Assembly (NCBI GenBank): GCA_012964665.1
Contig: DTTO01000053.1
Location: forward strand, 1 to 64,000
Length of the DNA: 64,000 bases
Direction of reading: 5' to 3'
Source: Fidelibacterota bacterium
Lineage (GTDB): Bacteria; Fidelibacterota; Marinisomatia; Marinisomatales; TCS55
The translations under genes were made by a program, and so were the position numbers. Positions 46,018 through 50,548 of this stretch are shown one piece after another. Position 1 is the first letter of the stretch. Each line of letters opens with the position of its first letter. Below the pieces are notes generated by a model. That model saw only the letters and a program-made list of their open reading frames with translations. It searched no databases and had not been told where the DNA came from.

Positions 46018-46329
46018 ATCCTTACTCCAAAGATTTACCAACTATGGGCTATTTTTATTTTGGATTGGAGATGAAGGGAAGGAAGCATTCGGCCCTTCAG
46101 CCGAGATAGAATTCCACAGAATGAATCAATTTAATCTTCTGAAGGTGGAAAAATTTTTGCAACTATTTTCGATAGGTCTAAAATCAGACCGAAAAAACTT
46201 TTTGGACACGCACCTTCAATTCATCTACATCCAATGAAGAAAATACATAGTGTAGTCCAACTGACCAAGAAATATAACAGATTGATAATAAGTTTGGCTT
46301 CAATTCGATTTTACTATTAATTTAGATCA

Positions 46330-46381
46330 GTCGTGATTTGCGCCCTATTTGCCGCGACATAAAAAAATGGTGCTAAAAAGG
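46330..46381 (+). ncRNA. SAM-II/SAM-V-type S-adenosylmethionine riboswitch aptamer
   Basis: GUCGUGAUUUGCGCCCUAUUUGCCGCGACAUAAAAAAAUGGUGCUAAAAAGG. P1 = 46330-46334 with 46354-46358; conserved GAUUU at 46335-46339; GC 46351-52 pairs with GC 46372-73; CC 46344-45 pairs with GG 46380-81. 3' core GCUAAAAAGG matches the SAM-II core as remembered from the metX/env-12 aptamer. Confidence 0.85.
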
Positions 46382-46413
46382 TTTTCAGCCCCGAAATAGC
46401 ATCGGGGCTTTTT
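46368..46413 (+). promoter_or_regulatory. Riboswitch expression platform: antiterminator/terminator switch for metH
   Basis: Terminator AGCCCCGA(46387-94)/UCGGGGCU(46402-09)+U-run. Alternative hairpin UGGUGCUAAAA(46368-78)/UUUUCAGCCCCG(46382-93), one mismatch and one bulge, consumes both the aptamer 3' core and the terminator 5' arm. Confidence 0.8.
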
Positions 46414-46416
46414 GTT

Positions 46417-49400
46417 ATGAACAGTATTACAGAAATATTTAAAAAACGGATCCTGGTGCTGGACGGTGCCATGGGAACCATGGTACAGTCATACAATTTG
46501 TCTGAGGTAGATTTCCGTGGTGAGCGCTTTGTATCGCATTCAAATGATTTGAAAGGTAACAATGATATTCTGTGCCTTACCCGTCCTGATGTGATAGCTG
46601 AAATTCACCAAGCTTATTTTGATGCAGGTGCAGATATTATTGAAACCAATACTTTTAACGCCAACTCTATTTCCCAGTTAGATTATGCCGCGGAAGACCT
46701 AGCCTATGAGATCAATCTAGAAGCAGCAAAGATTGCTAAAACCGTAGCAAAAAAATACACTGACAAATCGCGTTTTGTAGCCGGTGCAATAGGGCCAACT
46801 AACCGCACTGCTTCCCTTAGTCCCGATGTCAATAATCCGGGATTTCGAAATATTTCCTTTGATGAATTAAAAGATGCTTATTTTGACCAGGCAAAGGGAC
46901 TTTTTGATGGAGGTGTTGACCTTTTTCTCATTGAAACGGTATTTGATACATTGAATTGTAAAGCTGCCTTGTTTGCGGTGCAGGAACTGTTGGAAAATAA
47001 GGGAGCAGATATTCCTGTGCTTGTTTCCGGAACCATTACCGATGCCAGCGGACGTACTCTCTCGGGACAAACAGTGGAGGCATTCTGGTATTCGGTTTGT
47101 CACGCTAATCTCACGGCTATAGGGCTTAACTGTGCACTAGGTGCAGAACAAATCCGTCCTTGGCTGGATGAATTATCATCTGTAGCAAATACCTATGCAT
47201 TTGTCTATCCCAATGCGGGGCTTCCCAATGAATTTGGTGAATATGATGAAACGCCGGAAAAAATGGCCAATATTATTCGAGAATTTGCAGAAAGTGGACT
47301 AGTAAACCTTGTTGGTGGTTGCTGTGGTACAACACCAAGCCATATCAAGGCGATTGCAGAAGCAGTGGATGGGATAAATCCAAGAAAAATTCCGATTATT
47401 GAGCCATTAACTAAATTAAGTGGACTCGAGCCAGTTACCATCCGACCAGATAGCAATTTCGTGAATGTGGGAGAGCGAACCAATGTGACGGGTTCGGCCC
47501 GTTTCCAAAGTCTGATCAAGGAAGATAATTACGAGGAAGCCTTGTCGGTAGCCCGGCAACAGATCGAGAATGGCGCTCAAATAATTGATGTAAACATGGA
47601 TGAAGGACTTTTGGATTCGGAACAAGCCATGGAAACTTTTCTGCGGCTGATTGCTTCCGAGCCGGATATTGCCAAAGTACCTGTCATGGTGGACTCCTCC
47701 AAGTGGACTGTGCTGGAAACAGGGCTGAAGAACCTGCAGGGAAAAGGCATTGTCAATTCTATTTCTATGAAAGAGGGTGAGGGTGAATTTATTCGCCAAG
47801 CCAAAATCATCAAGAATTATGGTGCTGCCGTGATCGTAATGGCCTTTGATAAAAAAGGTCAAGCAGATACTTATGATCGGAAAGTTGATATTTGTACAAG
47901 GGCTTATCATATTTTAACAAAAAAGGTTGGATTTTCACCGGAAGATATCATTTTTGATCCGAATATTTTTGCCGTAGCCACTGGCATCGAAGAACACAAC
48001 GAATACGGTAAAGCATTTATTGATGCAGCCAAAACGATCAAAGAAACATTACCAGGAGTTCATATCAGTGGTGGTGTAAGTAATCTTTCTTTTTCCTTTC
48101 GGGGAAATAGCGGTGTCCGTGAAGCTATGCATTCTGCATTTTTATATCATGCAATTCAGGCAGGGATGGATATGGGAATTGTTAACGCCGGACAACTTAC
48201 TATTTACGATGAAATTGCACCTGAGTTAAAAGAACGAGTAGAAGATGTTATCTTTAATCGTAGGAATGATGCCACAGAAAGACTGGTCGAAATTGCAGAA
48301 GGATTCAGGGGTGTTAAAAAAACGCAAGAAAAAGATTTAACTTGGCGACAAAATGCTGTAGAAGAACGATTAAGTCATGCTCTGGTGAAAGGTATCACCG
48401 ATTTTGTTATTGAGGACACGGAAGAAGCTCGAAAACAATATAGTCGTCCAATTGAGGTAATTGAAGGGCCCCTGATGGATGGGATGAACGTGGTGGGAGA
48501 TTTATTTGGTACGGGAAAAATGTTTTTGCCTCAGGTGGTAAAATCCGCACGGGTGATGAAAAAAGCAGTTGCCCATCTTATTCCATTTATTGATAAAGAA
48601 AAAGATGAATTGGGTCTTACCGATAAATCCAACGGTAAAATTGTCATGGCAACCGTAAAGGGGGACGTCCATGACATAGGGAAAAATATTGTGGGTGTGG
48701 TACTTGGTTGTAATGGCTATGATGTGATTGACTTGGGGGTAATGGTCCCATCTGAAAAAATATTATCTACCGCCCAGGACATAGGTGCTGATATTATCGG
48801 TCTTTCAGGGCTGATTACACCTAGTTTGGATGAAATGATTCACGTGGCCAGTGAAATGGAACGCCTAAAATTTGATATTCCTCTGCTCATTGGTGGTGCC
48901 ACCACCAGTCGCACGCATACTGCTGTAAAAATCGAAGAAAATTATACTGGGCCTACGGTTCATGTGATCGATGCATCCCGGGCTGTGGGTGTGGTAAGCA
49001 AGCTCTTCAATGAAGATGAAAAAGCAGATTTTGTGGATGGTATTCGGAAAGATTTCGAACAGATACGTGTTACTAGAGCCCAAAAGACTGCTACTAAAAC
49101 GTTATCCCTTGATGATGCAAGAAAACGGAAGTTTGTAGTTGATTGGGATAGTTCCCAGACTCTAAAACCCAAGTTGCAGGGCATAAAAGTATTTGAGGAT
49201 TATCTTTTGGATGAACTGGTAGATTATATTGACTGGTCACCCTTTTTTCATGCCTGGGAGTTAAAAGGGGTCTATCCCAAAATATTATCCAACAAAAAGT
49301 ACGGAGAGGAAGCCCAAAAACTTATAGATGATGGTCAGGGTTTATTGCAGCGGATCGTAGGAGAAAAATTATTGACTGCCAAGGCTGTCATTGGTATTTA

Positions 49401-49956
49401 CCCTGCACATGCGGAAAATGAAACGGTTTTTTCAGAAGGCGTTGAATTCAATTTTTCGCGCCAGCGGGTAGATAAGGGTAGAAATCAGCCCAATTACAGT
49501 CTGGCGGACTTTATTGCACCAAAAAATGATTTTCTAGGAATGTTTGCCGTAACTACCGGTCATGGACTGGAAGCAATTGTAAAAGAATTTGAAGATCAAA
49601 ACGATGATTATAACGCCATCATGGCCAAAGTATTGGCGGATCGTTTAGTGGAGGCCTTAGCGGAAAGGATGCACGAACGGGTCCGGAAGGAATTCTGGGG
49701 ATATGCTTCTGATGAACAAATGAGTAATGAAGAATTAATCAGAGAAAAATATAAGGGTATACGCCCAGCGCCGGGTTACCCGTCTTGCCCTAGCCATAAA
49801 GAAAAAGATAAGATTTGGTCATTGCTGGAAGTGGCAAAGAATACGAGCATTACCTTAACAGAAACCCGGGCCATGTACCCAGCTGCCTCAGTATGCGGGT
49901 GGTATTTTTCCCACCCAGAATCACGCTATTTTTCTGTGAGCGATATTGGTTTATAA
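46417..49956 (+). CDS. metH: Cobalamin-dependent methionine synthase
   Basis: [48 protein letters not shown]12 site [30 protein letters not shown]-terminal AdoMet activation domain. Confidence 0.98.
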
Positions 49957-50548
49957 AGAAGACACGGCCCAATTTTGGGAAGACATTTATCTGGAAGATG
50001 ATGCGGGCTGGGATCTGGGTGGTATTACACCAGTTTTTGATAGTATTGCTGATGAGTTAAACCATGGTCGGGTATGTATTGTAGGCTGTGGCCGTGGTTA
50101 TGATGTAGTTATGTTTGCCCAAAAGGGATTCGAGGTCACAGCAGTCGATTTTGCGCCTTCAGCAACAACAGCGTTGGAAACAATATCTAAAGAAGAAAAT
50201 GTGAATGTCCAGATACGCCAGTCTGATATTTTTTGTCTTACACCAGAATATGACGGTGTTTTTGACTATGTTATTGAGCAAACTTGTTTTTGTGCCGTCA
50301 ACCCTGAGCGCCGACAGGAATACGAAAGGTTGGTATACAAAATTTTAAAACCGGGCGGAAAATTGATTGGCCTATGGTTCCCTCTGGATAAGACAATATC
50401 AGATGGGGGACCGCCATGGGGAACAACTATTGATGAAGTAAAATCCATTTTCAAAAATGATTGGATTATTGAAAACGAAGAATTTCCAGAAAAATCCATT
50501 CAACCCAGAAAAAATCGTGAAAAACTCATTATTTTTGAAAAACAATGA
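49946..50548 (+). CDS. SAM-dependent methyltransferase, TPMT/thiol-halide methyltransferase-like
   Basis: [60 protein letters not shown] start, 11-bp overlap with metH. Confidence 0.85.

Follow-up and report, generated by a model that had tools for sequence, protein, structure and literature searches.

A SAM-II riboswitch upstream of metH in Marinimicrobia and its predicted antiterminator

The metH leader and its SAM-II aptamer

The stretch of DNA analysed here (the window, 64,000 nt) encodes the cobalamin-dependent methionine synthase MetH on its forward strand, with a TIGR02082 match of 1732 bits (cut-off 1011) and all five Pfam domains present. The metH ATG at 46417 lies 35 nt downstream of an aptamer of the SAM-II family, which places the element before a gene of the methionine/SAM pathway. 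A TPMT-family SAM-dependent methyltransferase gene (49946-50548, +) overlaps the end of metH by 11 nt; it may be co-transcribed with metH, and hence may also be under riboswitch control. The leader and gene comprise the following features.

46293-46327, + strand: probable promoter before P1, with a T-rich -35-like element (TTTGGC region) and an A+T-rich -10-like element (TTAATTT region)
46330-46334, + strand: P1 5' strand, GUCGU, whose closing pair covaries
46335-46339, + strand: conserved GAUUU (L1), invariant in relatives apart from some with AAUUU
46340-46353, + strand: loop GCGCCCUAUUUGCC, with GC at 46351-46352
46343-46352, + strand: P2 5' strand, made up of CC (46344-46345, shifted register), UAUUU and GC (46351-46352)
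46354-46358, + strand: P1 3' strand, GCGAC, pairing with GUCGU with one U-G
46359-46371, + strand: A-rich linker between the P1 3' strand and GCUAAAAAGG
46368-46375, + strand: predicted antiterminator 5' strand, UGGUGCUA, overlapping the P2 3' strand (GCUA in common)
46372-46381, + strand: P2 3' strand, GCUAAAAAGG, a SAM-II hallmark, with GCTAAA in 82/82 relatives
46387-46416, + strand: intrinsic terminator, AGCCCCGA, loop AAUAGCA and UCGGGGCU, then UUUUGUU, abutting the metH start codon
46397-46404, + strand: predicted antiterminator 3' strand, UAGCAUCG, comprising the terminator loop and the start of the 3' arm
46417-49956, + strand: metH, cobalamin-dependent methionine synthase, 1179 aa

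When a 601-nt stretch was searched with all Rfam families, the element at 46330-46381 (+) matched the SAM-II model RF00521 with 34.3 bits (E 5e-6; match extent 46320-46397, + strand). Default cmscan of the window returned no matches because this score lies just below the curated gathering score of 36 bits. Across the host assembly (1.59 Mb, 75.6% complete) the element was recovered with RF00521 at E 3.1e-6 and the runner-up reached 14.7 bits (E 0.67), making it the sole credible RF00521 place in the assembly. RF00521 also gave weaker matches at other places of the genome (≤14.7 bits), which we regard as background; low-scoring matches to further Rfam families within 46100-46700, SNORD28 among them, we put down to chance. 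The original prediction of a SAM-II-type aptamer directly upstream of metH, whose letters and coordinates were correct, is thus borne out by the family match together with conservation in relatives. The leader element is a real SAM-II riboswitch. It adds one member to a known class and has a switch specific to its lineage, and its class membership suggests that the RNA binds SAM. GAUUU at 46335-46339 is presumably L1, which holds the ligand-site uridines of SAM-II.

Comparison of related leaders supports both helices. The closing pair of P1 occurs as T-G, T-A, G-C, A-T and C-G and is paired in 81/82 sequences, against 66.4 in permuted alignments (0/2000 permutations), while the remaining four P1 pairs are invariant. 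In P2, the pairs CC/GG and GC/GC are nearly invariant among relatives, and the base before CC pairs with the base after GG in 54/77 (41.4 permuted, 0/2000); this covariation independently points to the pseudoknot, a feature absent from the Rfam model. Covariation of P1 and P2 across metH leaders, as well as retention of GAUUU and GCUAAAAAGG in them, agrees with what was originally proposed. Plain minimum-energy folding of the leader gave an ordinary energy (z -0.47) with P1 missing from the fold, which is uninformative because a pseudoknot cannot be held by plain folding.

Upstream of P1, T reaches 79%/65% at -35/-34 and A 86% at -10 in 85 relatives, counted from the first base of P1, and their best -10-like hexamers gather at -14 to -11 before P1. 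Judged from consensus only, 46293-46327 is probably the promoter, with transcription starting at about P1.

The window copy carries a one-base peculiarity. Each of the other 81 distinct relatives that were parsed has exactly 5 nt separating CC from GC in the P2 5' strand; the window reads CCCUAUUUGC where a sister genome (L040) reads CCCUAUUGC, and this additional U is unique to the window among 82 distinct relatives. The description of the strand as CC, exactly 5 nt, then GC therefore holds if CC is taken as 46344-46345, but fails in the unshifted register. Reading CC one base later restores the 5-nt spacing but gives up the third P2b pair, which is retained in the unshifted register only. 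The extra U may be genuine, slightly detrimental, or an error of sequencing or assembly, and given this insertion the window copy might bind SAM poorly. That the aptamer is damaged or weakened in the window copy, or carries an assembly error there, and is intact in relatives would fit with the uniqueness of the insertion and its absence from the sister genome. We consider this reading unlikely, as the covariance model does not penalise the extra U (34.3 bits versus 34.0 in the sister), the CCC run permits a shift back to 5-nt spacing, and the other conserved positions and the switch helix described below are all intact.

Distribution of the element among Marinimicrobia

The nearest named relatives of the window metH come from Candidatus Neomarinimicrobiota (Marinimicrobia/SAR406) MAGs, a phylum that NCBI now lists as Fidelibacterota, in the FCB group. 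At E≤0.1, RF00521 matched 56/61 near genomes and 3/14 unrelated controls, none of the latter over the gathering cut-off; at E≤0.001, it matched 106/247 genomes of the phylum and 0/14 controls. Scores above 36 bits were reached in 55/247 phylum genomes, mostly by the homologous metH element, and the Rfam cut-off thus misses about half of the Marinimicrobia members. The host had been correctly recognized as non-proteobacterial, but its oddity was overstated, given the breadth of these matches and the fact that papers from 2005 and 2007 had already described SAM-II from the Bacteroides group (PMC1273637, PMC2258182).

Within the window's order, 89 of the 96 metH-bearing genomes carry the element (E≤0.001); among the seven exceptions, two metH matches begin inside the gene at a contig edge. 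G026, also of this order, matches RF00521 at E 0.0015 and lies outside the 89 counted. Directly downstream of the parsed Marinimicrobia elements we found metH in 82/90 cases, and of the other eight, three are too short to tell and two more match metH further in. None of the 27 alphaproteobacterial SAM-II elements examined has metH downstream. Because the element is present in nearly all metH-bearing genomes and usually sits directly upstream of the gene, SAM-II appears to be the ordinary metH regulator in this order. SAM-II was found in 2/198 genomes of the Bacteroidota class of Gillisia, both below cut-off, and this class therefore yielded no control set.

Several further observations concern the distribution of metH and SAM-II. 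Members of one family of the order (f15; G086-G103 and others), with genomes of 0.4-1.0 Mb, mostly have neither metH nor SAM-II, which is a joint loss. SAM-II also lies directly upstream of metH in betaproteobacterial MAGs (L060, L069 (Accumulibacter), L061 and L081), and metH as a SAM-II target is thus not confined to Marinimicrobia. One contig labelled Nitrospinales (L064, JAKUOQ010000102.1) has metH (82% identical) behind a SAM-II leader of the Marinimicrobia type, and is probably mis-binned.

A terminator that covaries with the aptamer

The original prediction did not mention an expression platform, which consists here of a terminator at the metH start and a covarying antiterminator. An intrinsic terminator is present in 85/89 parsed Marinimicrobia leaders, usually located just upstream of the start codon, by a few bases. 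Its loop in relatives reads UAGC, UUAGC or similar and can thereby pair with the aptamer's GCUAA, and the bases flanking this loop motif track the variable bases of the aptamer (GGU/ACC, GAU/AUC, GUU/AAC, GA/UC and CAAAUGC/GCAUUUG). The aptamer/terminator pairing even extends to GCUAAAAAGG/CCUUUUUAGC.

The mean contiguous pairing of this switch helix is 6.88, compared to 6.18 ± 0.10 when terminators are swapped among leaders (0/5000) and 4.74 for shuffled hairpins. The permutation result persisted after thinning to 60 sequences at 0.9 similarity (0/5000) and to 22 at 0.8 (5/5000), and was not significant at 0.7, where only 5 elements are left (272/5000); shared ancestry is not fully removed in these tests. 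A single-column test with the register set independently of the aptamer compared the base before GCUAA with the base after (U)AGC (columns N-1 and M+1) and found them paired in 68/81 leaders versus 51.7 permuted (0/5000), in 43/46 versus 33.4 among those with the partner inside the terminator loop (0/5000), and in 32/40 versus 22.1 after thinning to 40 sequences (0/5000). A loop base that follows an aptamer base points to pairing of the two, since the terminator loop base would otherwise have no evident reason to do so. A few relatives lack a good switch helix (L113, L176, L178 and L021).

Two other registers were considered and dropped. Pairing of GGUGCU with AGCCCC of the terminator 5' arm, our first antiterminator candidate, was abandoned because the complementarity in relatives lies in the loop and 3' arm. 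The register seen in Alphaproteobacteria, in which the strand after GCUAAA faces the terminator, was without signal in Marinimicrobia, where 3507/5000 permutations reached the observed value.

In Vienna folding of the window leader, whose energies leave out the pseudoknot and SAM, the antiterminator is favoured when its strand has just emerged (-16.9 versus -11.1 kcal/mol for the partial terminator), while the terminator is favoured at full length (-22.4 versus -19.6 kcal/mol for the antiterminator). In some relatives the antiterminator is favoured even at full length. A constrained fold also allows the linker at 46359-46365 to pair with the terminator U tract at 46409-46415. Based on complementarity, covariation and energies, the antiterminator helix is predicted to exclude both the P2 pseudoknot and the terminator.

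We consider it likely that this riboswitch is a transcriptional OFF switch for metH. Transcription would start beside P1, and the nascent aptamer would fold P1. Abundant SAM, bound with the GAUUU loop strand on one side and P2 on the other, would lock GCUAAAAAGG (46372-46381) in the pseudoknot, and the terminator hairpin (46387-46409) would then fold undisturbed, such that RNA polymerase would stop at the U tract, before the metH AUG. When SAM is scarce, free UGGUGCUA (46368-46375) would pair with UAGCAUCG (46397-46404) once the terminator loop is transcribed, taking three bases of the terminator 3' arm and allowing transcription of metH; the outer A-rich linker could also take up the U tract in this fold. 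Because UGGUGCUA shares GCUA with the P2 3' strand, pseudoknot and antiterminator are mutually exclusive, and the choice between antiterminator and terminator would be a race during transcription, tipped by SAM holding GCUAAAAAGG. The anatomy, the family match, conservation, covariation of P1, P2 and the switch helix, and the identity of metH are observed, while SAM binding and the direction of control, both taken from the SAM-II class, and the termination efficiency are what we infer in this scheme. It is also fairly probable that Marinimicrobia, in which SAM-II is almost universal on metH, use a lineage-specific "loop-capture" platform, in which the pseudoknot strand pairs with the terminator loop and 3' arm in a register unlike that of Alphaproteobacteria, forming an antiterminator supported by covariation.

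Alternatively, SAM-II could act mainly on translation, with SAM hiding AAAAAGG as a Shine-Dalgarno (SD) sequence and the hairpin serving as a spacer. AAGG hardly varies, no SD is present beside the metH AUG, and AAGG would lie ~12 nt from the AUG if the hairpin were excluded. Such hiding of an SD has been proposed for metX SAM-II and, at a distance, for S. meliloti metA, whose SD lies within the aptamer, 74 nt upstream (PMC9373788). Conservation of GCUAAA..GG is, on the other hand, accounted for by binding in SAM-II, a spacer would need neither a terminator with a U tract before the AUG in nearly all leaders nor a loop that covaries with the aptamer, and SD use is weak in the window (an SD-like tetramer precedes 16/48 long ORFs versus 15% at random positions). 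We therefore regard translational control in place of termination as quite improbable, although translational control in addition to termination may occur.

Very improbable is the reading of the element as a SAM-V aptamer or as a SAM-II-like aptamer for another ligand such as SAH. SAM-V and SAM-II have a fold and binding site in common (PMC6061858), and the original prediction had named both types; the SAM-II part stands on the RF00521 match, slightly under the gathering score as it is, whereas the SAM-V part falls, with RF01826 giving no match at E≤10 in 46100-46700. In addition, the platform is transcriptional as in SAM-II, SAM-V being translational (PMC6061858), and the metH context fits SAM. 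Chance resemblance, suggested by a short motif in an A+T-rich leader, a score under the gathering cut-off and the ordinary folding energy, is practically negligible, being already refuted by the order-wide conservation with covariation and by the genome-wide E of 3e-6. The transcriptional SAM-II switch remains our preferred reading.

Comparison with known SAM-II and related systems

Structurally, SAM-II is among the best-studied riboswitch aptamers. Direct evidence on switching by its transcriptional members is little, and a 2007 survey called SAM-II switching mechanisms not experimentally established (PMC2258182). The ~85 leaders found here hold aptamer, switch helix and terminator within ~90 nt, and this compactness makes the transcriptional SAM-II mechanism directly testable. 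They also point to regulation of B12-dependent methionine synthesis by SAM level in an abundant uncultured marine lineage. We found no paper on SAM riboswitches in Marinimicrobia/SAR406 in the open-access literature; the SAM-II class is known, and its near-universal use on metH in this order, together with a legible switch, is absent from the open-access papers found.

The Marinimicrobia aptamer has the same fold and SAM site as SAM-V (RF01826), including the tandem SAM-II/SAM-V of Pelagibacter (PMC6061858, PMC11508383), but SAM-V is translational and its model fails to match the window element. Some Marinimicrobia carry a different tandem, in which an RF00521 aptamer is followed by a hairpin and U tract and then by an RF01726 "SAM-II long loop" aptamer:

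L117: tandem SAM-II, 599-675 and 714-772
L121: tandem SAM-II, 522-598 and 636-694
L174: tandem SAM-II, 408-483 and 517-589
L175, - strand: tandem SAM-II, 3563-3489 and 3447-3389
L188, - strand: tandem SAM-II, 3783-3710 and 3689-3631
L190: tandem SAM-II, 1-62 and 104-162

These tandems are usually followed by an SD sequence. The genes they precede are small and uncharacterised and are not methionine genes; several copies occur in some genomes, and phage-like exonuclease genes lie near that of L117. For mobile-element genes, SAM sensing would be an unusual feature.

In Betaproteobacteria, the metXZ RNA element (Leyn 2014, PMC4239095) likewise has a pseudoknot before methionine genes, then terminators and a speculated antiterminator, but it lies on metX/metZ and was not identified there as SAM-II, to which it is possibly related. 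A group of leaders from another class (L235-L263, the class of G250) has a P1 that is mostly GCGCC/GGCGC, and complementarity is often seen in them between GCUAAAGCG and CGCUUUAGC, the latter in the loop and 5' arm of the terminator, which reads as a third switching register; the metXZ element may be this SAM-II variant.

Terminators downstream of many SAM-II aptamers were noted in 2005 and 2007 (PMC1273637, PMC2258182). The same order of SAM-II aptamer and intrinsic terminator is found in S. meliloti metZ and metA, and metZ yields a ~100-nt terminated RNA that increases at high SAM (PMC9373788). In this 2022 study a SAM-II-driven antiterminator was not predictable for S. meliloti metA (PMC9373788), whereas in Marinimicrobia it is legible and covaries.

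Compared to the SAM-II metA motif (RF00521 SAM_alpha; Corbino 2005, PMC1273637), the Marinimicrobia element has the same P1 and H-type pseudoknot, GAUUU, GCUAAA(A)AGG and 5-nt P2 spacing, for which the window's own copy needs the register shift, and the same arrangement of P1 near the transcription start, a terminator downstream and a methionine gene. It differs in its phylum, in its metH target and in a P2b of only 2-3 bp. In 23 alphaproteobacterial elements with a terminator, GGUCGG, the strand that follows GCUAAA, matches the 5' arm of the terminator. Permutation gave a weak signal for them, probably since both strands show little variation. The switching strand of Marinimicrobia, unlike that of these sampled Alphaproteobacteria, comprises GCUAA and the bases upstream of it, and is complementary to the terminator loop and 3' arm.
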